A DNA stretch of 64,000 nucleotides from Halegenticoccus soli (GTDB taxonomy: Archaea > Halobacteriota > Halobacteria > Halobacteriales > Haloferacaceae): NCBI RefSeq assembly GCF_002844195.1, contig NZ_PEND01000006.1, forward strand, positions 186,001 to 250,000. Reading direction: 5' to 3'. Position numbers and translations under genes: made by a program. Of this stretch, positions 11,719 to 22,047 are shown one piece after another (position 1 is the first letter of the stretch; each line of letters starts with the position of its first letter). The notes under the pieces were generated by a model that was not told where the DNA came from, did not search any database, and saw nothing but the letters and a program-made list of their open reading frames with translations.

Positions 11719-12435
11719 ATGGAGACGCTCTGCGATCTCGTCGCGCGCGACCGGCGGAGCGAGCGCCCGGCGCTCCGGATCGCCGGTTCGACCCCGTACA
11801 GCTACCGCGACTTCTGTACGACCGCGTGGAAGGCGAGCCACGCCCTGCGGTACCTCGGCGTCGGCCGCGGTCGGCGGGTCGAACTCGACGACGACCCGTC
11901 CCCGGCACCGATTCTGACGTTCCTCGGCGCGGTCCTGCTCGGCGCGGAGGCGGGTTTCGTCCCCGGCGAGGGGGACGCCCGGGCCGTCGTCGTCCCGCGC
12001 TCCCGCGAGGGCGAGTTCGACCTCCCGCCGGGGCGAAAACTCGTCGTCTACGGCGGGCGGCCGTCGTCGCCGAACGCGACGCACTGGGAGCGCGACGTCT
12101 GGAGCGAGAACCCGACGTTTCCCCCCGTCGGCGTCGAGCCGGGAGATCCCGCGCTCGTCACGGGCGGCAGCGCGTACACCCACGCGGACCTCCTGTCGGC
12201 CGCTCGGAGCGTCGCGGATCGCTTCGACCTCGACGCCGACGGCGAGGTCGCGGTTCGCTCGCCCCTGCGCCGTCCGGGAACCGTCGCGGCCGGGCTCGTC
12301 GCGCCGCTCCTGGCGGGGGGGACGATCGTCTCTCCCGGCGCTGACTCGGAGGAAGCGACGGTCTGCGATCTTGGCGTCGGCTCCGACTGTCCGGACGACG
12401 CCGAGATCGCGCCGGACGAGGTCGGCCTCGCCTGA
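11719..12435 (+). CDS. Truncated acyl-CoA synthetase-like (AMP-ligase N-domain) protein
   Basis: A 238-residue protein resembling the N-terminal half of acyl-CoA synthetases: an opening METLCDLVARDRRSERPALRI and SYRDFCTTAWKASHALRYLGV like the start of that fold, then a segment with YTHADLLSAARSVADRF and a VAAGLVAPLLAGGTIV motif like the region before the ATP loop. The AMP-binding signature (SGTTGxPKG), the hinge and the catalytic Lys are absent, so it cannot be a working ligase. It stands next to, and converges on, a full-length acyl-CoA synthetase gene. It may be a regulator or lid protein, or a degenerate copy. Function unknown. Confidence 0.6.
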   Translation: METLCDLVARDRRSERPALRIAGSTPYSYRDFCTTAWKASHALRYLGVGRGRRVELDDDPSPAPILTFLGAVLLGAEAGFVPGEGDARAVVVPRSREGEFDLPPGRKLVVYGGRPSSPNATHWERDVWSENPTFPPVGVEPGDPALVTGGSAYTHADLLSAARSVADRFDLDADGEVAVRSPLRRPGTVAAGLVAPLLAGGTIVSPGADSEEATVCDLGVGSDCPDDAEIAPDEVGLA

Positions 12436-12465: not shown

Positions 12466-14457
12466 CTACTTCGCCGCCTGGATCTTTTCGAGCGCGTCCG
12501 GGTTCTCGATGCTGCTCATGTCGCCGAGCTCCTCCCCGGCGTAGATCGAGGCGATGGCCCGGCGGATGATCTTCCCGCTCTGCGTTTTGGGAAACTCGTC
12601 GACGAACAGCACCTCGCGCGGGCGGAACGGCTTGCCGAGCTCCTCGCCGACGAGCTCACGCAGCTCCTCGCGGAGCGCGTCGCTCACGGCGTGGCCCTCC
12701 TCCAGCACGACGTAGGCGACGACCGCCGTCCCGGTGGTGTCGTCGGGGACGCCGACCGCGGCGGCCTGGTTGACCGCGTCGTGTTCGATGAGCGCGCCCT
12801 CGACCTCGGCGGGACCGACCTTCCGTCCGGCGACGTTCAGGGCGTCGTCGGCCCGGCCGTGGAGGAACCAGAAGCCGTCCTCGTCCTTCTGCGCCCAGTC
12901 GCCGTGGTCCCACAGCGGCGGCTCCTCGAAGGTCGACCAGTACTCCTCCAGGTAGCGCTCGTCGCCGTCCCAGAGGCTCTTGGTCATCGAGGGGCAGGAG
13001 TCGCGCGCGACGAGGAACCCGCGTTCGTGGACGTCCGCGATCGACTCGCCGGCCGAGTTCACGATGTCGACCGCCATCCCGAGGCCGGGGCCGCCGAGGG
13101 TACAGGGCTTGAGCGGCTGGGTCGGCATCGGCATGAGGAAGCAGCCGCAGATCTCGGTGCCGCCGGAGATGTTGATGATCGGCGCCTCGCCCCCGCCGAC
13201 GTTCTCGTAGAACCACATCCACGACTCGGGGTCCCACGGCTCGCCGGTCGACCCGAGCAGCCGGAGGCTGGAGAGGTTGTGCCCGTCGAGCCACTCGTCG
13301 CCGTGCTTGCGGAGCGCCCGGATCGCGGTCGGGGAGATGCCGAACACGGTGAGCCCGTGGCGGTCGATCATCTCCCAGAAACGGTCCGGGTCGGGGTAGT
13401 CCGGCGCGCCCTCGTACATGAAGATCGTCCCGCCGAAGGTGTGGTTGCCGATGAGCGTCCACGGCCCCATCATCCAGCCGATGTCCGACACCCAGAAGAA
13501 GCGGTCCCACGGCTTGTGGTCGAATCCGAAGTAGATCTCCTTGGCGCACTGCATCTGGACGCCCGCGTGAGTGTGGACGATCCCCTTCGGCTTGCCCGTC
13601 GTCCCCGACGAGTACAGGAGCATCGACTCCTGCTCCGAGGGGAGCGCCTTCGTCTCGTACCCGTCGTCCGCGCGCTCGACGGTCTCGTGCCACCACTCGT
13701 CCCGTCCGTCCTCCCAGGGGACGTCGACGCCGCTCTCGGGATCGCTCGCCCCGAGGCGGTCGAAGACGATCGCGTGCTCGACGTGGCCGGCCGCCTCGAT
13801 GGCCTCGTCGGCGGTGTCCTTCAGGACGATCTCGCCGCCCCGGCGGTAGAACCCGTCCCCCGTGAACAGCACGGAGCACTCCGCGTCCTCGATTCGGGTG
13901 GCGACGGCGTCCACGCCGAACCCCGAGAAGATCGGCACGGCGATCGCGCCGACCTTGAAACAGCCGTAGAGGATCGAGATGACCTCGGGGACCATGGGCA
14001 TGTAGAGGCCGACGGTGTCGCCGGTGCCGACGCCGCGCTCTTCGAGCGCGTTCGCCACCTTGTTCGCCTGGCGGTGGAGCTCGTGGAAGGTGATCTCCCG
14101 CACCTCGCCGGGTTCGCCCTCCCAGATGCACGCCACCTTGTTGCGCGTCTCGCTTTCGGGGGCGGCGTGCCGGTCGACGACGTTGTGCGCGACGTTGATC
14201 CGGCCGCCGGGGTACCAGCGGGTGAACTGCGGGCCGTCCGCGTCGTCGCGCACCTCGTCGTAGCCCTCGTAGAACTCGACGCCGAGGTAGTCGGGCAGTT
14301 CGTCCCAGAACCAGTCTACCTCGCCGCAGGTCCGCTCTATCAGCCCGTCGTAGTCGTCGATCCCGTACTCCTGCATGAACGCGTACACGTTGGTGGACTC
14401 GACGAACTCCCGGCTCGGTTCGTGGACCACCTCGTCCGTGTCGGGTACTGTTTCCAT
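12466..14457 (-). CDS. Acyl-CoA (acetyl-CoA-like) synthetase
   Basis: A 663-residue AMP-forming ligase that activates a carboxylic acid to its CoA thioester. Motifs: WYPGGRINVAHNVVDRHA (ACS N-domain), ATP loop LLYSSGTTGKPKGIVHTH (~285), GTEICG, HGDWAQKDEDGFWFLHGRAD (hinge Asp), GRKVGPAEVE and the catalytic Lys in FPKTQSGKIIRRAI near the C-terminus. The length fits the ACS family. The acid used is not predictable from sequence; the neighbourhood (kinase, acyl-CoA dehydrogenase, SDR, two carboxylate transporters) suggests a short- or medium-chain oxo/hydroxy acid. A possible minus-strand TATA (TAAAAATTA, 14494-14502) lies 41 nt before the start. Confidence 0.9.
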   Translation of the reverse strand: METVPDTDEVVHEPSREFVESTNVYAFMQEYGIDDYDGLIERTCGEVDWFWDELPDYLGVEFYEGYDEVRDDADGPQFTRWYPGGRINVAHNVVDRHAAPESETRNKVACIWEGEPGEVREITFHELHRQANKVANALEERGVGTGDTVGLYMPMVPEVISILYGCFKVGAIAVPIFSGFGVDAVATRIEDAECSVLFTGDGFYRRGGEIVLKDTADEAIEAAGHVEHAIVFDRLGASDPESGVDVPWEDGRDEWWHETVERADDGYETKALPSEQESMLLYSSGTTGKPKGIVHTHAGVQMQCAKEIYFGFDHKPWDRFFWVSDIGWMMGPWTLIGNHTFGGTIFMYEGAPDYPDPDRFWEMIDRHGLTVFGISPTAIRALRKHGDEWLDGHNLSSLRLLGSTGEPWDPESWMWFYENVGGGEAPIINISGGTEICGCFLMPMPTQPLKPCTLGGPGLGMAVDIVNSAGESIADVHERGFLVARDSCPSMTKSLWDGDERYLEEYWSTFEEPPLWDHGDWAQKDEDGFWFLHGRADDALNVAGRKVGPAEVEGALIEHDAVNQAAAVGVPDDTTGTAVVAYVVLEEGHAVSDALREELRELVGEELGKPFRPREVLFVDEFPKTQSGKIIRRAIASIYAGEELGDMSSIENPDALEKIQAAK

Positions 14458-14555
14458 GGGACGGTCTCGGTGGCACTACAGCGCAGGGCGACGTAATTTT
14501 TACCCAATCGATCACCAACGTCGGGGGCGAAACCGGCGGCCGGCGGTCGGTCCGC

Positions 14556-15680
14556 TCACAGTTCCTCGTCGCCGTCGACGATCCGAACCGCCCGGTCCGC
14601 CAGCGCCGGGACGCCCGCGCCCATCTTCGGGTACAGCGGGTCGCTGCTGTTGCCCTCCAGGTGCCGCCTGAGGAACATCTCGCCGAGCGCCGCCAGCTTG
14701 TAGACGGCGAGCGCCCGGTAGAAGCGGTCGTTCTCGAACGCGATTCCCGTCCGCTCCTCGTACCGCTCTGCGAGTTCGCGCCGCGTCGGGTACCCCTCGC
14801 GCGCCATGAACGTCGGCATGAGCTCGGGAACCGCCGGTTCCGGGTCGCCCTCGTCGCGCCAGAACGCGAGCAGCCAGCCGAGATCCGAGAGCGGGTCGCC
14901 GAGCGTCGACAGCTCCCAGTCGAAGACGGCGACGATTTCGGGCTCGGCGGCCCCGCGCGCGCCGCCCGCGCCCCCGTTCCCCGACGCGTATCGACCCGCG
15001 GGCGCGAACATCACGTTGTCGAGCTTGTAGTCGCCGTGGACGAGCGTCTCGGGGTGCGACTCGGGGACGTTGTCCGCGAGCCACTCGCCGACCGCCTCCA
15101 GCGCGGGCACTTCGCGCTCCTCCCGCGTCCGCTCGAAGGCCCACGCGAGCTGTTTCCGCCAGCGTTCGACCTGTCGCTCGGTGTAGCCCGCCGGCCGGCC
15201 GAAGTCGCCCAGGCCGACGGCCTCGTAGTCCACGCCGTGGATCGTCGCCAGCGCGTCGACGAGCTCCTCGCCGATCCGCCGTCGAGCGCCGGGAGCGGCG
15301 AACCGCTCCGGCTCCGACTCGCGGAGCACGTCGCCCTCGACCCGCTCCATGACGTAGAAGTCGCAGCCGAGCACGCCGTGATCCTCGCAGGCGAGCACCG
15401 TCGGGGGAACCGGGACCTCGGTTCCCTGTAGCGCGTCCACGACGCGGTACTCGCGGAGCACGTCGTGCGCCGTCTCCGCGACCTCGCCCGGCGGCGGGCG
15501 GCGGATCACGAGGTCGCGGTCGCCCCACGTCGCGAACAGCGTCTCGTTCGAGTGCCCCGCGTCGTGTCGCTCGACCGCGAACGGCTCCGCCTCGCCGAGC
15601 TCGCCCGCGAGGTACGATCGCAGGGCGTCCTCGTCCACGAGGCGTTCGAAGTACCCGTCGGGCCGATCCGCGTCGCTCAC
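14556..15680 (-). CDS. ACAD10/11-type phosphotransferase (LvaA-like kinase)
   Basis: A 374-residue kinase-fold protein of the aminoglycoside-phosphotransferase superfamily, in the subgroup related to the N-terminal domain of mammalian ACAD10/11 and bacterial LvaA. Seen: the nucleotide-loop region GHSNETLFATWGDRDLVIRR followed by PPP, the catalytic loop HGDYKLDN (residues 215-222) and the metal motif DWELSTLGDPLSDLGW (from 254). Members phosphorylate the 4-hydroxyl of 4-hydroxyacyl-CoAs. An Asn/Gly/Ala-rich insert (230-245) separates the loops. It lies downstream of no promoter of its own that I can place with certainty, and is divergent from the acyl-CoA dehydrogenase gene (214 nt between starts). 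Subfamily firm; substrate inferred. Confidence 0.82.
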   Translation of the reverse strand: MSDADRPDGYFERLVDEDALRSYLAGELGEAEPFAVERHDAGHSNETLFATWGDRDLVIRRPPPGEVAETAHDVLREYRVVDALQGTEVPVPPTVLACEDHGVLGCDFYVMERVEGDVLRESEPERFAAPGARRRIGEELVDALATIHGVDYEAVGLGDFGRPAGYTERQVERWRKQLAWAFERTREEREVPALEAVGEWLADNVPESHPETLVHGDYKLDNVMFAPAGRYASGNGGAGGARGAAEPEIVAVFDWELSTLGDPLSDLGWLLAFWRDEGDPEPAVPELMPTFMAREGYPTRRELAERYEERTGIAFENDRFYRALAVYKLAALGEMFLRRHLEGNSSDPLYPKMGAGVPALADRAVRIVDGDEEL

Positions 15681-15894
15681 GATTCGGTCGACCCCCGTCG
15701 CGTCGCTCGGACCATGGCTGTGCGGTACGGCATCGCCCTACAATTATGTACCGTCGACCGCGCCGCCGGCCGGTACTTCTGGACGCCGCCGCGCGGTCGT
15801 CCTCCCCCGCGCCTCTTCGGTTCCGGCGGCGGCGCTTCGGCGCGAGATTTCCCCCGCACGAGACTTTTTGACGCGACGCCCGCATCTGTGACCT

Positions 15895-17112
15895 ATGAGG
15901 TACGATGACTCGGATCGCGCGCGCGAGGTCGCCGCCCGGACGCGCGAGTTCGTCGACGAGGTGGTGATCCCCGTCGAGCGCGATCACCTCGGCCGCGAAC
16001 CGGCGTCGGACGGGACGATCGCCGACCTCCGGGAGCGAGCGCGGGAGTACGGCGTGTACGGTCCGCAGATTCCCGAGGCGTACGGCGGCATGGGGATGAG
16101 CTACCGGGACGTACTCCCGGTTTTCGAGGAGGCGGGCCGGAGTCTCCTCGCCCCGGCGGCCCTTCGCGTCGACGCCCCCGACGAGGGGAACATGCACACG
16201 CTCGCACTCGTCGGGACGGACGAGCAGAAGGAAGCGTGGCTCCGCCCCCTCGCGGCGGGCGAGATCAGCTCCGGCTTCTGCATGACCGAACCGATCCAGG
16301 GCGGCGGATCGGACCCGAAGATGCTCCGCACGCGCGCCGAACGGGACGGCGACGAATGGGTCGTCACCGGGCACAAGTGGTGGACGACGAACGGCGCGGA
16401 GGCGGACGTGTTCCTCGTGATGGTGCGGACGGACCCGGACGCACACCCGTACGAGGGCTGCTCGATCGTTCTCGTCCCGGCGGACGCTCCGGGCGTCGAG
16501 GTGAAGCGAGCGATCCCGCACACCGGCGGCGACGTGACCGGCCAGAGCCACGCAGAGATCCTGTTCGACGGCGCCAGGGTGCCCACCGAGAATCTCCTGG
16601 GCGAGGAGAACGCCGGGTTCGAGATCGCCCAGCGGCGACTCGGACCGGCCCGGCTGACCCACTGCATGCGCTACTCCGGCATGGCGGAACGGGCGCTCGA
16701 CATCGCGAAGGCGTACGCGTCCGAACGCGAGGCGTTCGGTTCGTCGCTCGCGGAGAAGCAGGCGCTCCGGTTCGGGCTGGCGGAGGCGGAGACGCGGCTC
16801 CACGCCGTCCGCTGTATGGTCCGACACGCCGCCCGGCGGATCGAGGCCGGCGACGAAGCGCGCGTCGAGGTGTCGATGAGCAAGCTGTACGCCTCGAACG
16901 TGGTGCAGGAGACCGTCGACGCGGCGATGCAGGTGTGCGGGGCGAACGCCGTCGGGAAGGACCTCCCGCTGGCGGACTTCTACGAGAACGTCCGGCAGTT
17001 CCGCTTCGTCGACGGCGCCGACGAGGTACACAAGCGCGTCATCGCCCGCGACGCCTTCTCGGACGTCGATCCCGGGGAGTTGGCGAACATCACGCGGTAC
17101 GACGAGCCCTGA
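15895..17112 (+). CDS. Acyl-CoA dehydrogenase, ACAD10/11 (LvaC)-like
   Basis: A 405-residue flavoenzyme of the acyl-CoA dehydrogenase fold. Typical segments: YGGMGMSYRDVLPVFEEAGR, GFCMTEPIQGGGSDPKML (FAD/substrate loop), GHKWWTTNGAEAD, RLGPARLTHCMRYSGMAERA and QVCGANAVGKDLPLADFYEN. The C-terminal segment is FVDGADEVHKRVIARDAF (371-388). Ordinary dehydrogenases have YEGT with the catalytic Glu here; the DG-x-DEVH form is typical of the ACAD10/11 group, which removes phosphate from 4-phosphoacyl-CoA. It is divergent from the kinase gene, consistent with joint regulation. A weak TATA (ACTTTTTGAC, 15862-15871) is 28 nt upstream. Confidence 0.88.
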   Translation: MRYDDSDRAREVAARTREFVDEVVIPVERDHLGREPASDGTIADLRERAREYGVYGPQIPEAYGGMGMSYRDVLPVFEEAGRSLLAPAALRVDAPDEGNMHTLALVGTDEQKEAWLRPLAAGEISSGFCMTEPIQGGGSDPKMLRTRAERDGDEWVVTGHKWWTTNGAEADVFLVMVRTDPDAHPYEGCSIVLVPADAPGVEVKRAIPHTGGDVTGQSHAEILFDGARVPTENLLGEENAGFEIAQRRLGPARLTHCMRYSGMAERALDIAKAYASEREAFGSSLAEKQALRFGLAEAETRLHAVRCMVRHAARRIEAGDEARVEVSMSKLYASNVVQETVDAAMQVCGANAVGKDLPLADFYENVRQFRFVDGADEVHKRVIARDAFSDVDPGELANITRYDEP

Positions 17113-17275
17113 GCGGACTCGACCCCGGATGCGCTCGGTCGGTCGGGTTCGGGAGCGGCGATATCCGGACCTTCGCCCGGCAGCCACGATCGATCGCTGC
17201 GACCGATCCCGATCGTCGTCGCCCGATCGCCGCACGACCCGTCACCGCGTGAAATCCGAACCCCGTCGGCCGAAC

Positions 17276-17285
17276 CGTTATATCT
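17276..17285 (+). promoter_or_regulatory. TATA box of the MFS transporter gene
   Basis: CGTTATATCT is centred 26 nt before ATG 17306; it selects this internal ATG over codons upstream in the same open frame. Confidence 0.65.
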
Positions 17286-17305
17286 CCGACGTGAGATCCG
17301 AGGGT

Positions 17306-18562
17306 ATGCGACCGCGCCTCGGGTACCCCGGTTATTACGGCTGGGTCGTCGTCGTCGCGTGTTTCCTGGGCTCGCTCGTCGTCTTCGGCATCTCGTACTC
17401 CTTCGGGGTGTTCTTCGACCGGATGCTCGCCGAGTTCGGTCGATCGCGCGGCGAGACCTCGCTCGTCTTCGCTATCCAGACGTTCGTCGTGTACGTCGGC
17501 GCGGCCGCCGTCGGCTGGTTAGTCGACAGGTACGGGACCCGACGCCTCCTGTTGGCCGGGGCGGTGCTGATCGCCCTGGGCCTCGGGGGCGCCGCCGTGA
17601 GCGACACGCTCTGGGGCGTGATCGTCTCGTACGGCGTCGTCGCGGCGCTCGGGTTGAGCGTTGTCTACGTCGTCTCCTACGCGACGGTACCGAAGTGGTT
17701 CGAGCGGCGTCGGGGGTTCGCTGGCGGCGTCGCGTCCTCCGGGCTCGGAATCGGCATGCTCGTCGTCGCTCCGACCGCCTCGATGCTCATCTCCGCCTAC
17801 GGGTGGCGCTTGACGTACCTGCTCGTGCTCGTCCTGTCGACCGCGCTCCTGACGATCGCGGCGGTCCTCGTCGCCGACAGTCCGCGCCGACTCGGCGTGG
17901 ACGCGTCCGAGGAGTTTCCCGAGGGGTACGACGACGGGTCGGAGCGGCGCCGACTGACGCCGCGCGAGCAGCTTCGAGAGACGCTCGCGGTTGCCCGTTC
18001 GGGGTCGTTCCTGCTCGTGTTCTTCGGGTGGGTCTGCATCTACGCCACGCTGTACGTCGTGTTCGCCCACCTGGTCCTCTTCACCGCCGACGCCGGGATC
18101 GGACGGTGGGTCGGCGTCTGGGCGCTCGGCGTCGTCGGGGGCGTCACGAGCCTCGCGCGCCTCGCCATCGGCCACCTCTCCGACCGCCTCGGCCGGGCGC
18201 GCGTTTTCGTCGCGTGCTCCACGGCGATGGGGCTCGCGACCGTCGCCCTCGCGTTCGCGACGACGCCGCTCGCCGTCTTCGCCTTCGCCGTCGTTTTCGG
18301 CGCGGCGTACGGCGGGAACGGCGCGCTCCTCTCGCCGCTCACGGCGGACCTGTTCGGCACCGCCAACATCAACGTCCTGTTCGGTCTCGTCTCGACCGCG
18401 TTCGCCGTCTCCGGCCTCCTCGCTCCGTTCGCAGCCGGCGTCGCCTACGATGCGCTGGCCACGTACGTCCCGGCGTTCGTCGCCGCCGGATCGCTCGCCG
18501 TCTTCGGCGCGGGGCTGGTCGCGTGGGCCGGCCGGCGCGAGCGCGCGCTCGGCGGCGCGTAG
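17306..18562 (+). CDS. MFS transporter, monocarboxylate (MCT/OFA)-like
   Basis: A 418-residue transporter with twelve predicted hydrophobic segments split by a central charged loop (about residues 195-225, ESPRRLG and EGYDDGSERRRL region). The opening GYYGWVVVVACFLGSLVVFG and SFGVFFDRMLAEFGRSRGET is characteristic of monocarboxylate/oxalate-formate porters. Loop motifs GWLVDRYGTRR (2-3) and GHLSDRLGRAR (8-9) fit the MFS pattern. It is inferred to import (or export) an organic acid, in keeping with its catabolic neighbours. The ATG at 17306 is set by the TATA box 26 nt upstream. Confidence 0.85.
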   Translation: MRPRLGYPGYYGWVVVVACFLGSLVVFGISYSFGVFFDRMLAEFGRSRGETSLVFAIQTFVVYVGAAAVGWLVDRYGTRRLLLAGAVLIALGLGGAAVSDTLWGVIVSYGVVAALGLSVVYVVSYATVPKWFERRRGFAGGVASSGLGIGMLVVAPTASMLISAYGWRLTYLLVLVLSTALLTIAAVLVADSPRRLGVDASEEFPEGYDDGSERRRLTPREQLRETLAVARSGSFLLVFFGWVCIYATLYVVFAHLVLFTADAGIGRWVGVWALGVVGGVTSLARLAIGHLSDRLGRARVFVACSTAMGLATVALAFATTPLAVFAFAVVFGAAYGGNGALLSPLTADLFGTANINVLFGLVSTAFAVSGLLAPFAAGVAYDALATYVPAFVAAGSLAVFGAGLVAWAGRRERALGGA

Positions 18563-18757
18563 TCGCACCGCTCGCGGATCCGTTCCCTCCGGACGTTCCG
18601 AGGAGGACGTGCGCCGTGCCAACATACATGTGTTGTCTTTCCGTAGCCTCTCCTCGTGCGAATCCAGGATTCACCAATCGCTCGCGGCGTGCGTCCGCTC
18701 GGGGCGGGCTTTCCGACAGGCTCTGCCCGACGGACTCGACGGCGGGGGGCGGTCTGA

Positions 18758-19531
18758 GTGTCCGTCCTCGACTCGTTCGACCTCTCCGGTCGGGTTGCGG
18801 TCGTCACCGGCGGGACGCGCGGCATCGGTCGGGCCATCGCGGTGGGGTTGGCGGAGGCGGGCGCGGACGTGGTCCCGACGTCGCGCACCCGCGGGGACGT
18901 GGCGGCCGCCGCGGAGGCCGTGCGCGAGCGCGGCGGGGAATCGATCGTCGTCCCGACGGACGTGACCGACGACCGCGACGTGACGGACCTGTTCGAGCGG
19001 ACGGCGGCCGAACTCGGCGGCGTCGACGTGGTCGTCAACAACGCCGGCGTCAATCCGGCCGCGGCGCTGGGCCGACCCGAACGGGTGGAGATGGCGGGGT
19101 TCGACCGGACGCTCGACGTGAATCTCCGCGCCGCGTTCCGCTGTTCGCGGGCCGCCGCCGAGTTCCTGCGCGAGAGCGACGGCGGGTCGGTGATCAACGT
19201 CGCCAGCGTCGGCGGCGTCGTCGGCCTCCCGCGCCAGCACCCCTACGTGGCGTCGAAGCACGGGCTCGTCGGGCTGACGAAGAGCATGGCGCTGGACTGG
19301 GCACCCGAGATCCGGGTCAACGCCATCGCGCCGGGCTACGTCGCGACTGAGCTGACCGAGGAGGTTCGGGGGAACGAGGATCTCCGGCGGTCCATCGTCG
19401 ATCGAACGCCGCTGGAGCGCTTCGCGGATCCGGAGGAACTCGCCGCTCCGGCGGTGTTCCTCGCGGGCGACGCTGGATCCTTCGTCACCGGCGCCTGTCT
19501 GACCGTCGACGGCGGATGGACGGCGCGGTGA
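18758..19531 (+). CDS. SDR-family oxidoreductase (FabG-like)
   Basis: A 257-residue classical short-chain dehydrogenase. The cofactor motif TGGTRGIGRAIA and NNAG are present; the catalytic Ser is in NVASVGG, with Tyr/Lys in YVASKHG. The end PEELAAPAVFLAGDAGSFVTG and TVDGGW is the usual C-terminus. It interconverts a keto and a hydroxy group with NAD(P)H. Next to an acyl-CoA synthetase, an ACAD10/11-type kinase and a dehydrogenase, a natural role would be reduction of a 4-oxoacyl-CoA, as LvaD does in Pseudomonas; this is inference. The start is GTG 18758 (VSVLDSFDLSGR). Confidence 0.88.
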   Translation: MSVLDSFDLSGRVAVVTGGTRGIGRAIAVGLAEAGADVVPTSRTRGDVAAAAEAVRERGGESIVVPTDVTDDRDVTDLFERTAAELGGVDVVVNNAGVNPAAALGRPERVEMAGFDRTLDVNLRAAFRCSRAAAEFLRESDGGSVINVASVGGVVGLPRQHPYVASKHGLVGLTKSMALDWAPEIRVNAIAPGYVATELTEEVRGNEDLRRSIVDRTPLERFADPEELAAPAVFLAGDAGSFVTGACLTVDGGWTAR

Positions 19532-19796
19532 CGGCGAGCCCGACGTTCTCGGAGAGCCGGCGCGGCGCGCGGGAACGCGTATTGAGGGTAGCTAACAGAC
19601 GACACGGTCGGCGCGCGAAGTGGCGTGTCGCACTCCCGCGGAGCACTTCGCGGTAACGCGTCAGGTCACGGGCGATCTGGTCCCGCCTTCGTACATGAAT
19701 CTCCGCTTCGGGGCGATCTCGGGTTCCCGGCGTCGAGCCGCGTTCGGGAGAGCGTAACTAACACACTTTTGGGGTGCCGGGGAAAATCGGCATCGT

Positions 19797-20480
19797 GTGA
19801 CACTCGACACCTCCCGCGTCGAGACGGTGACGTTCGACTCCTACAGCACGATCGTGGACGTGGATGCGGTCGAGAGCGTCCTCGCCGATCACGTCTCGGA
19901 CCCCGAACCCGTCTCGGCGCTGTGGCGGACCCGGTCGCTGGAGTACGCGATGGTGAGCAACTTCGTCGACGCGTACCAGCCGTTCTACGAGATGAACCGC
20001 GACGCGATGGAGTACGCGCTGGCGGTACACGGCGTCGACCTGAGCGCCGACGAGAAGGACGAGATACTCTCGGCGTACCACGACCTCGATGTGTTCGACG
20101 ACGTCCGGGACGGGATGGCGCGCCTCGTCGAGGCGGGGTTCGAACTCTACGTCGTCTCGAACGGGAACCCCGAGATGCTCGACTCGATGGTCCGCGGCGC
20201 GGAGGTGGGCGATCTCCTGACGGACACGATCAGCGCCGACGAGGTGGAGACGTACAAGCCCGCCGCCGAACTCTACCGGCACGCGGCGGCCCGAACCGGC
20301 ACCCCGATCGATCGCATCGCGCACGTGAGCGCCGGGTGGTTCGACGTCCACGGCGCGATGCACGCCGGGATGCAGGGCGTCTGGGTCGATCGAAAAGGGA
20401 CCCCGTGGGAGCCCTTCGGAGATGCGCCGGACCTGACCGTCGAGACGTTCCACGACCTGGCCGACGAACTCGGCGCGTAG
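19797..20480 (+). CDS. HAD hydrolase, haloacid dehalogenase type II-like
   Basis: A 227-residue protein resembling L-2-haloacid dehalogenases. The nucleophile Asp14 is in TFDSYSTIVDV, the Arg of WRTRSLEY is residue 44, Ser121/Asn122 are in VVSNGN, Lys154 in VETYKP and Asp183 in SAGWFDVHGA. The loop Gly of the usual DAYGT is Ser, and the position of the substrate-binding Asn177 of the type enzyme appears to be Gly180. It may therefore act on a phosphorylated or other substrate rather than a haloacid. The start is GTG 19797, with weak CACTTTT upstream. It lies between the SDR and the fatty acid permease. Confidence 0.75.
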   Translation: MTLDTSRVETVTFDSYSTIVDVDAVESVLADHVSDPEPVSALWRTRSLEYAMVSNFVDAYQPFYEMNRDAMEYALAVHGVDLSADEKDEILSAYHDLDVFDDVRDGMARLVEAGFELYVVSNGNPEMLDSMVRGAEVGDLLTDTISADEVETYKPAAELYRHAAARTGTPIDRIAHVSAGWFDVHGAMHAGMQGVWVDRKGTPWEPFGDAPDLTVETFHDLADELGA

Positions 20481-20601
20481 GTCCGCCGCCGGCGCGACCC
20501 GCGGCGTCCGGGGTGGCGCGGTCGGCCGATCCGAGGACGAACGGCCGTACTAGACGCGAACTAAAGTTTATGCGCCCTCGCGGTATCTGCCGAACCGGAT
20601 T

Positions 20602-22047
20602 ATGGCAACCGATTCCAGCGGAACGATCATACAGCGGTTCGGCCGGCGGGTGTCCGGCGTCGTCGAGGAAGTGATGCCGAGCCCGTTCCTGTTCGCGATC
20701 CTCCTGACGTACGTCGTCTTCGTCGCCGGCGTCGCGGTGGAGGGGACCGGGCCCGGCGCGATGGTCGGGTACTGGGCCGACGGGTTCTGGGCGCTCCTGG
20801 AGTTCGCGATGCAGATGGTGCTCATCCTCGTGACGGGGTACGCGCTCGCGTACCACCCGTGGGTCAGACGGGCGATCGCGCGGCTGACGGCCGCGCCGCG
20901 GAACGGGGCGCAGGCGGTCGTGCTCGTCGGCGTCATCGCGATGGTCGTCTCGTGGATCCAGTGGGGGCTCGGCCTGATCGTCGGGGCCGTCCTGGCGCGG
21001 GAGATGGGACGGCAGGCGCACGAGCGTGGGATGGCCGTCCACTACCCGCTCCTCTGCGTCGCGGGCTACATGGGGCTCGGCCTGACGTGGCACTGGGGGC
21101 TCGCCGGCTCCGCGCCGCTGCTCATGAACACGCCGAACAACGTCTTCATCGAGCAGGGCGTCGTCGACGGGCTGATCTCGACCTCGCGGACGATCTTCTC
21201 CACGTACTCGCTCGCGCTGACGGCGCTCGGAATCGCCTACAGCGCCGTCGCCCTGTACCTGCTCTCGCCGCCCGCCGAACACAGCGAGGGGATCGAGGAG
21301 TTCGTCCCGGCGTCGCAACTCGGCGGCGCGGGAGACGGCGGAACGTCGGCGAACGGCGGAACGCGGGCGGACGGCGGCGTCGAGACGACGTCCGTCGGGG
21401 ACAGCCGCGACTTCGACACCTTCGGCGAGCGCATCGACAACAGTCGGCTCGTCGGCTTCGTCATCGCGGCCACGGGCGTCGGGATCGCCCTCTACGCCTT
21501 CGCGGAACAGGGGCTCGGCGCGCTGAACCTCGACAGCGTCAACTTCCTGTTCCTCTTTCTCGGCCTGCTCCTGTTTCTCCGGCCGACCGCGTACCGCGAG
21601 CAGTTCTACGACGCCGTCTCCTCGACCGGCGGAATCATCCTCCAGTTCCCCTTTTACGCCGGCATCATGGGGATGATGAACTCGTCCGGACTGTCGCAGA
21701 CGCTCGCGGAGACCATCGTCTCCGTGTCGACGCCGCAGACGTTCCCCGCGGTCGCCTGGATCACCGCGGGCATCGTCAACTTCTTCGTCCCCTCCGGCGG
21801 CGGCGAGTGGACCGTCATCGGCGGCACGATCCTGAGCGCGGCGGCGGACCTGGGCGTGCCGCCCGGCAAGGCGGTCGTCGCCTACGCGGTCGGCGACGCC
21901 CACACCAACCTCTTCCAGCCGTTCTGGGCGCTCCCGCTGCTCGGCATCACCGGGGTCCGCGCCCGGGACATGTTCGGCTACGCGGCGACGATGCTCCTGC
22001 TCCTGATTCCGTTCCTCGCGCTGGCGCTGACGTTCATCCCGTACTGA
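20602..22047 (+). CDS. Short-chain fatty acid permease, AtoE family
   Basis: A 481-residue membrane protein of the AtoE / TIGR00366 short-chain fatty acid transporter family. Family features include FLFAILLTYVVFVAGVAVEG, GYALAYHPWVRRAI, WIQWGLGLIVGAVLAREMG, HWGLAGSAPLLMNTPNN and NFFVPSGGGEWTVIGGTI, followed by YAVGDAHTNLFQPFWALPLLG. A central hydrophilic loop (about 228-275) carries a Gly/Thr-rich low-complexity stretch. About ten to twelve transmembrane segments. It would move acetate, butyrate or similar acids across the membrane. The last gene of the carboxylic-acid block; TATA-like AGTTTATG (20565-20572) is about 33 nt upstream. Confidence 0.88.
   Translation: MATDSSGTIIQRFGRRVSGVVEEVMPSPFLFAILLTYVVFVAGVAVEGTGPGAMVGYWADGFWALLEFAMQMVLILVTGYALAYHPWVRRAIARLTAAPRNGAQAVVLVGVIAMVVSWIQWGLGLIVGAVLAREMGRQAHERGMAVHYPLLCVAGYMGLGLTWHWGLAGSAPLLMNTPNNVFIEQGVVDGLISTSRTIFSTYSLALTALGIAYSAVALYLLSPPAEHSEGIEEFVPASQLGGAGDGGTSANGGTRADGGVETTSVGDSRDFDTFGERIDNSRLVGFVIAATGVGIALYAFAEQGLGALNLDSVNFLFLFLGLLLFLRPTAYREQFYDAVSSTGGIILQFPFYAGIMGMMNSSGLSQTLAETIVSVSTPQTFPAVAWITAGIVNFFVPSGGGEWTVIGGTILSAAADLGVPPGKAVVAYAVGDAHTNLFQPFWALPLLGITGVRARDMFGYAATMLLLLIPFLALALTFIPY

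Follow-up and report, generated by a model that had tools for sequence, protein, structure and literature searches.

Only in recent years have the individual enzymes of the 4-hydroxy acid phosphorylation route been worked out, first in Pseudomonas and later in mammals. The Pseudomonas lva operon, LvaR-LvaABCDEFG (pathway in PMC9399607), joins a kinase (LvaA), LvaB, an acyl-CoA dehydrogenase (ACAD; LvaC) and a short-chain dehydrogenase/reductase (SDR; LvaD); in mammals, kinase and dehydrogenase are fused in ACAD10 and ACAD11, which have no LvaB (PMC12440821, PMC11342911). Here we compare with these systems a locus of Halegenticoccus soli, a haloarchaeon with a 4.6-Mb genome (G000), found in a 64,000-nucleotide stretch of contig C6 (the window). 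An earlier note had read seven genes within 9.6 kb of the window as an archaeal pathway for 4-oxo or 4-hydroxy acids. All seven are present as open reading frames, with their families confirmed by hidden Markov model (HMM) searches. The pathway part of that reading is upheld by the clade and residues of the ACAD and by its one-to-one co-occurrence with the kinase, but the block as a unit is not: the conserved module is kinase, ACAD and SDR, not the 9.6-kb block. Judged by family, residues, clade, co-occurrence and gene adjacency, we consider it highly probable that these three proteins make up an archaeal 4-phosphoacyl-CoA route for 4-oxo and 4-hydroxy acids, with kinase and ACAD as a two-protein equivalent of ACAD10/11 and of LvaA/LvaC. 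The core of the locus is as follows.

14556-15680, minus strand: kinase, APH type (PF01636); module core; predicted 4-hydroxyacyl-CoA kinase of the ACAD10/11 N-domain type
15681-15894: divergent promoter region of kinase and ACAD, 214 bp between both genes
15895-17112, plus strand: ACAD of the ACAD10/11-LvaC group; module core; predicted 4-phosphoacyl-CoA eliminase
18758-19531, plus strand: SDR; predicted 4-oxoacyl-CoA reductase / 4-hydroxyacyl-CoA dehydrogenase, LvaD role

The dehydrogenase, the kinase and the reductase

Since none of the NCBIfam models fits the kinase, LvaA, LvaC or LvaB, family membership was judged by residues and trees. The Lva reference used throughout is the operon on Pseudomonas aeruginosa plasmid p12939-PER, recognised through its gene order and an annotated lvaB, and not that of P. 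putida KT2440. In profile searches, the best PDB relatives of the ACAD are 4hr3 and ACAD11 (2wbi, 8v3u), which come before every conventional ACAD, and the fold comparison agrees on 4hr3 and ACAD11. Cryo-EM and mutants have shown that R626, H634 and R637 of ACAD11 hold the 4-phosphate; its catalytic base is D753, where ordinary ACADs have Glu, and R631 and H597 are also named (PMC12440821). The equivalents in the window ACAD are R248 (R626), R253 (R631), H256 (H634), R259 (R637), D373 (D753) and H219 (H597), and all six positions are invariant in 26/26 haloarchaeal ACADs (the window protein and 25 orthologues). By comparison, among 18 haloarchaeal ACAD paralogues from the host and other genomes, 15 have Glu as the base and not one has Asp, R626 is lost in all 18, the H634 position is occupied by V, I, L or W, and R637 is retained in one. 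The proline region of the expanded pocket (APD...APDxGNM) is partly retained, the second Pro in 26/26 and the first in 15/26 haloarchaeal ACADs.

The tree agrees with the residues. A maximum-likelihood analysis of 18 haloarchaeal ACADs, LvaC, ACAD11, 4hr3, 8 other bacterial ACADs and 19 paralogues unites all but the paralogues in a single clade (support 100/100), with the 19 paralogues outside. Within it, the haloarchaeal proteins form their own subclade (100/99), whose placement beside the LvaC subclade is weak (80/68); the window ACAD is 41% identical to LvaC and about 36% to ACAD11. The ACAD is thus very probably of the 4-phosphoacyl-CoA type, within the ACAD10/11-LvaC group, and elimination of phosphate is its predicted reaction. 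The earlier note, which had assigned it to the ACAD10/11 type, had named phylogeny in advance as one of the points on which its reading depended, and the protein lies inside the LvaC/ACAD11 clade with full support and all diagnostic residues. As a separate observation, a second ACAD copy of the 4-phosphoacyl type, about 62% identical to the window ACAD, is common in Natrialbaceae (loci L119, L132, L136, L143, L149 and others), where it usually lies beside a thiolase and a MaoC dehydratase and not beside a kinase.

By sequence and profile, the kinase has its best PDB relatives in 9o56, 3dxp and the kinase domain of ACAD11, and its predicted fold matches 3dxp with TM-scores of 0.78/0.88. D217 corresponds to the catalytic D220 of ACAD11, N222 to N225 and R169 to the CoA-contacting R176; R76-E77 is the Arg-Glu pair of helix alpha-C, whose Arg is R86 in the published numbering and residue 84 in the aligned ACAD11 chain, and D254 is the metal-binding Asp. 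The equivalents of D220, N225 and R176, together with the alpha-C Arg-Glu, are invariant in 42/42 haloarchaeal kinases. LvaA and the kinases of Thermus and Massilia, on the other hand, lack both arginines (R176 and the alpha-C Arg). All three have a gene of DUF6285 (PF19802), the Pfam family of LvaB, directly after them (L168:4591-4947, which is LvaB; L166:7086-7436 in Thermus; L170:7963-8367 in Massilia); the family might be given a new name as the subunit of the kinase. They fall in one clade of a kinase tree that was used only for this clade and for identities, its outgroup being very distant and its bootstrap not fully settled. With LvaA the window kinase shares 26% identity, with ACAD10/11-type kinases without DUF6285 33-39%. 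On residues and identities, it is classed with the ACAD10/11 type and not with the LvaA type, so that of the two likenesses proposed earlier the former stands and the latter does not. The earlier report that no LvaB-like protein is present extends beyond the locus: LvaB as query found no significant match in the host genome, and DUF6285 was found in 0/292 Halobacteria genomes. This absence is expected rather than a gap, because the kinase resembles the ACAD10/11 type, which needs no LvaB.

Kinase and ACAD thus share with mammalian ACAD10/11 the residues D220, N225 and R176, and R626, H634, R637 and D753, respectively, the lack of LvaB, and a predicted ATP-dependent phosphorylation followed by phosphate elimination to a 2-enoyl-CoA. 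They differ in being encoded by separate, divergent genes where the mammalian protein is fused, in their modest identity (about 34-36%) and in forming a clade of their own. The SDR carries the nucleotide-binding motif GGTRGIG and the catalytic motif YVASK, and is 41% identical to LvaD of the plasmid operon, a level of identity that leaves the substrate unfixed. It is predicted to act as a 4-oxoacyl-CoA reductase or, in the opposite direction, as a 4-hydroxyacyl-CoA dehydrogenase.

Distribution of the module

In a sample of 292 Halobacteria genomes, the kinase orthologue occurs in 145, and the ACAD orthologue in 144 by search plus one (G131) where an ACAD lies beside the kinase (L063). The two genome sets are identical, at 145/292, with no genome holding only one of the pair; three further genomes with weak kinase matches only were scored negative. 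Co-occurrence persists where the genes are distant, as in G019 and G118. Kinase and ACAD lie within 2.5 kb of each other in 80 of the 126 genomes with both genes listed, where about 0.3 would be expected by chance, and 33 of 36 adjacent pairs in the loci read are in head-to-head (divergent) order. The most frequent neighbour family is the SDR (29 loci), followed by 3-hydroxyacyl-CoA dehydrogenase, FadD-type ligases, thiolase and MaoC. Of the 98/292 genomes with the SDR orthologue, 90 also hold the kinase (Fisher p 6e-27, all related species counted); the SDR gene lies no more than 2.5 kb from the ACAD in 38 genomes and from the kinase in 14. The pair is plasmid-borne in several haloarchaea, which fits an accessory catabolic trait. 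Beyond class Halobacteria, a sample of about 180 genomes from the same phylum yielded no ACAD orthologue.

Near the pair, at L044:7929-8441 and 12 other loci, lies a family of 170-amino-acid proteins with no Pfam match; they resemble winged-helix/Lrp-type regulators and may regulate the pair.

The kinase, ACAD and SDR families are also joined in the plasmid lva operon and in loci of Thermus, Massilia, Cupriavidus, Georgenia and Rhodococcus. Bacterial two-gene pairs (Rhodococcus, Chelatococcus, Georgenia and Sphingobium plasmids) likewise have separate kinase and ACAD genes, no DUF6285 and often an SDR or acyl-CoA synthetase, but in the loci read their genes are on the same strand, and their ACADs belong to other subclades. 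Burkholderia orthologues of ACAD10/11-like pairs have been assayed (PMC11342911). On the Sphingobium plasmid pTomTYG72a (L167), genes for a 3-hydroxyacyl-CoA dehydrogenase, an epoxide hydrolase and a cytochrome P450 form one run with those of ACAD and kinase, an arrangement that suggests a different source of hydroxylated acids there.

Probable activation and uptake genes and the other neighbours

The remaining four of the seven genes lie beside or within this core, with intergenic gaps of 30-265 bp among the module genes.

12466-14457, minus strand: short/medium-chain acyl-CoA synthetase of the ACS family (AMP-binding + ACAS_N)
17129-18562, plus strand: major facilitator superfamily (MFS) transporter, MCT/lactate type (MFS domain match)
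19797-20480, plus strand: haloacid dehalogenase (HAD) type II, haloacid dehalogenase family (TIGR01428 above cut-off)
20602-22047, plus strand: AtoE/SCFA_trans carboxylate transporter (family match by HMM)

The ACS fails to reach the cut-off in the models for acetate, propionate and acetoacetate ligases. Its Gly432 occupies the position of the acetate-restricting Trp W414 of Salmonella Acs, and a Trp-to-Gly exchange at the acyl pocket is the state of ACS enzymes that accept longer acids (PMC10455477); a literature search for pocket mutants of 4-hydroxybutyrate-CoA synthetase found nothing in the papers searchable. The ACS shares the Gly at this position (G432) with such enzymes; unlike a dedicated component, its orthologue is near-universal (259/292 haloarchaea, irrespective of the module; 76-85% identity among the matches listed), and its specificity is a prediction. 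It belongs to the acetyl-CoA synthetase family, not to the LvaE type, and is 25% identical to LvaE. As a correction to the earlier note, the ACS probably activates the acid, though not as an enzyme dedicated to the module.

The AtoE transporter is the probable means of carboxylate uptake. In 10 of the 21 other genomes with both genes, the ACS lies within 2.5 kb of the AtoE orthologue; it is near the SDR in 4 genomes, and one (G146) has ACS, AtoE and SDR together. In other genomes, neither the kinase nor the ACAD has an AtoE orthologue within 2.5 kb, and no counterpart of ACS, HAD or AtoE was found beside the kinase-ACAD pair in 120 loci. In this genome, the kinase-ACAD-SDR core is joined to an uptake and activation pair, which would favour a short-chain substrate here. 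Compared with the lva operon, the locus is alike in kinase, LvaC-type ACAD, SDR and nearby carboxylate uptake. It differs in that the kinase belongs to another clade, LvaB/DUF6285 is missing, the ACS is remote from LvaE, AtoE replaces SSF/DUF485, there is no PrpR-type LvaR, with no PrpR-like gene among the neighbours, and the genes are divergent rather than in one operon.

The inclusion of HAD and MFS in the pathway, as first proposed, is not supported. An ACAD10-like identity was weighed for the HAD and rejected, as the protein matches type II haloacid dehalogenases and none of 120 loci has a relative of it beside the pair; it probably lies outside the pathway. Mammalian ACAD10 has a HAD domain next to its kinase, whereas the archaeal kinase lacks an ACAD10-like HAD domain. 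HADs of another subfamily (TIGR02253/TIGR02252-like) do occur near kinase or ACAD elsewhere (L069:8487-9260, L073, L083, L085, L123 and L164:9228-9950), and those near kinases in Haloferax mediterranei (RS18915) and L069 differ in subfamily from the window HAD. Position is what links the MFS transporter to the pathway, and its membership is not supported; its domain begins near residue 70 of the open reading frame, and the true start is probably at about 17306.

Two further features of the locus may be recorded. The divergent promoter region contains an inverted repeat with 12-bp arms (15755-15766 and 15788-15799), whose G+C content is too high for interpretation. An open reading frame of 238 amino acids (11719-12435), directly downstream of the ACS and convergent to it, matches AMP-binding enzymes over their N-terminal part only (TIGR03089-like, below cut-off).

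The proposed pathway, its alternatives and its significance

With steps transferred from the lva pathway (PMC9399607) and from ACAD10/11 (PMC12440821, PMC11342911), the following scheme can be proposed. A 4-oxo or 4-hydroxy acid would be imported, here probably through AtoE. Formation of its CoA ester would follow, for which the neighbouring ACS, with an opened acyl pocket, is the probable enzyme here and another CoA ligase the alternative. Where needed, the SDR would reduce the 4-oxoacyl-CoA to the 4-hydroxyacyl-CoA, whose 4-OH the kinase would phosphorylate with ATP and without an LvaB subunit. The ACAD would then eliminate phosphate to give a 2-enoyl-CoA, in a redox-neutral reaction that uses FAD, and the product would pass to ordinary beta-oxidation through enzymes encoded elsewhere in the genome, which codes for fused and separate enoyl-CoA hydratase / 3-hydroxyacyl-CoA dehydrogenase proteins. 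We infer by analogy which reactions occur, in which direction the SDR works, what ACS and AtoE do and which acid is used; the likeliest substrates in this genome would be levulinate, 4-hydroxyvalerate or 4-hydroxybutyrate.

Several points weigh against this scheme. The evidence for this organism rests on sequence, and identities to characterised enzymes are modest (41% to LvaC, about 36% to ACAD11, 33-39% to ACAD10/11-type kinases). The haloarchaeal clade stands apart from both tested clades, so that the substrate may differ. Kinase and ACAD are non-adjacent in many genomes (Natrialbaceae), the co-occurrence counts include related species, so that the Fisher value overstates independence, and no dedicated equivalents of LvaE, LvaF, LvaG or LvaR are conserved.

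The alternatives that retain the chemistry concern the substrate. A serious contender, if short of an even chance, is that in nature the pathway handles 4-hydroxy acids of medium or long chain length, such as lipid breakdown products, rather than levulinate or other short acids: ACAD11 serves longer-chain 4-hydroxy acids (PMC12440821), and many orthologous pairs adjoin the FadD-type ligases, 3-hydroxyacyl-CoA dehydrogenase, thiolase, MaoC and other ACADs of general beta-oxidation, but the neighbours in the window are a short-chain-type ACS and AtoE, and H. mediterranei grows on levulinate. Somewhat doubtful is a distinct third clade of the 4-phosphoacyl-CoA pathway in half of the sampled haloarchaea (two divergent genes and an SDR, no LvaB), which would act on a substrate that no known system uses, such as a hydroxylated acid of archaeal origin, and would also underlie levulinate growth in H. 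mediterranei.

Other explanations part with the proposed scheme further. That the entire 9.6-kb block, HAD and MFS included, is one dedicated cluster for levulinate or halo-acids is suggested by position, by two carboxylate transporters and by the family of the HAD; it is unlikely, given a near-universal ACS and the missing counterparts of ACS, HAD and AtoE beside the pair in other genomes. The kinase model also matches the 25-hydroxysteroid kinase 9ft5/9fsg (rank 2 by fold, E 3e-10 by sequence), and the kinase might then act on a tertiary alcohol, as that enzyme does, or on some other alcohol or hydroxylated CoA ester, with the ACAD acting on that product. We regard this as quite improbable, since by sequence the kinase matches the ACAD11 kinase and 3dxp much more strongly, retains the CoA-contacting R176 and has as its partner an ACAD with precisely the 4-phospho pocket. 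It would be most surprising, finally, if an ordinary ACAD stood by chance next to an APH of resistance- or storage-like type that is unrelated to it. Database names are generic and haloarchaea are rich in ACADs (9 matches in the host genome), but the one-to-one co-occurrence across 292 genomes, the conserved divergent adjacency, the Asp base, the Arg/His/Arg phosphate-binding set and the tree strongly contradict this.

The preferred reading, a 4-phosphoacyl-CoA route formed by kinase, ACAD and SDR, may have a physiological counterpart in H. mediterranei, whose reported growth rate on levulinic acid reaches 0.097 per hour (PMC12455835) and which has been fed levulinic acid for production of poly(3-hydroxybutyrate-co-3-hydroxyvalerate), as cited in PMC10970112. 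Its pair lies on pHME132 (kinase E6P09_RS18925, ACAD E6P09_RS18920), next to a HAD (RS18915), an SDR and a FadB-type gene. In the papers searchable, no genes were found assigned to this growth, and the lva operon appears in PMC12455835 in the reference list only. Both mammalian ACAD10/11 papers (PMC12440821, PMC11342911) leave archaea unmentioned, and no paper combining ACAD11, 4-hydroxy acids and archaea was found in a limited literature collection, which is no proof of absence. By its sequence, the module is very probably an archaeal variant of a known pathway, of which we found no earlier description in archaea, in line with the earlier note's remark on haloarchaea.

With these active sites present in about half of the haloarchaea sampled, the pathway would extend to a third domain of life, in a simpler, LvaB-free architecture. 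E6P09_RS18925 and RS18920 become candidate genes for the levulinate growth trait, levulinic acid being a biomass chemical for bioplastic production. The host genome of the window itself encodes a class III polyhydroxyalkanoate synthase (C1:302095-303114, above the NCBIfam cut-off), through which 3-hydroxyacyl-CoAs from the pathway could feed bioplastic synthesis.

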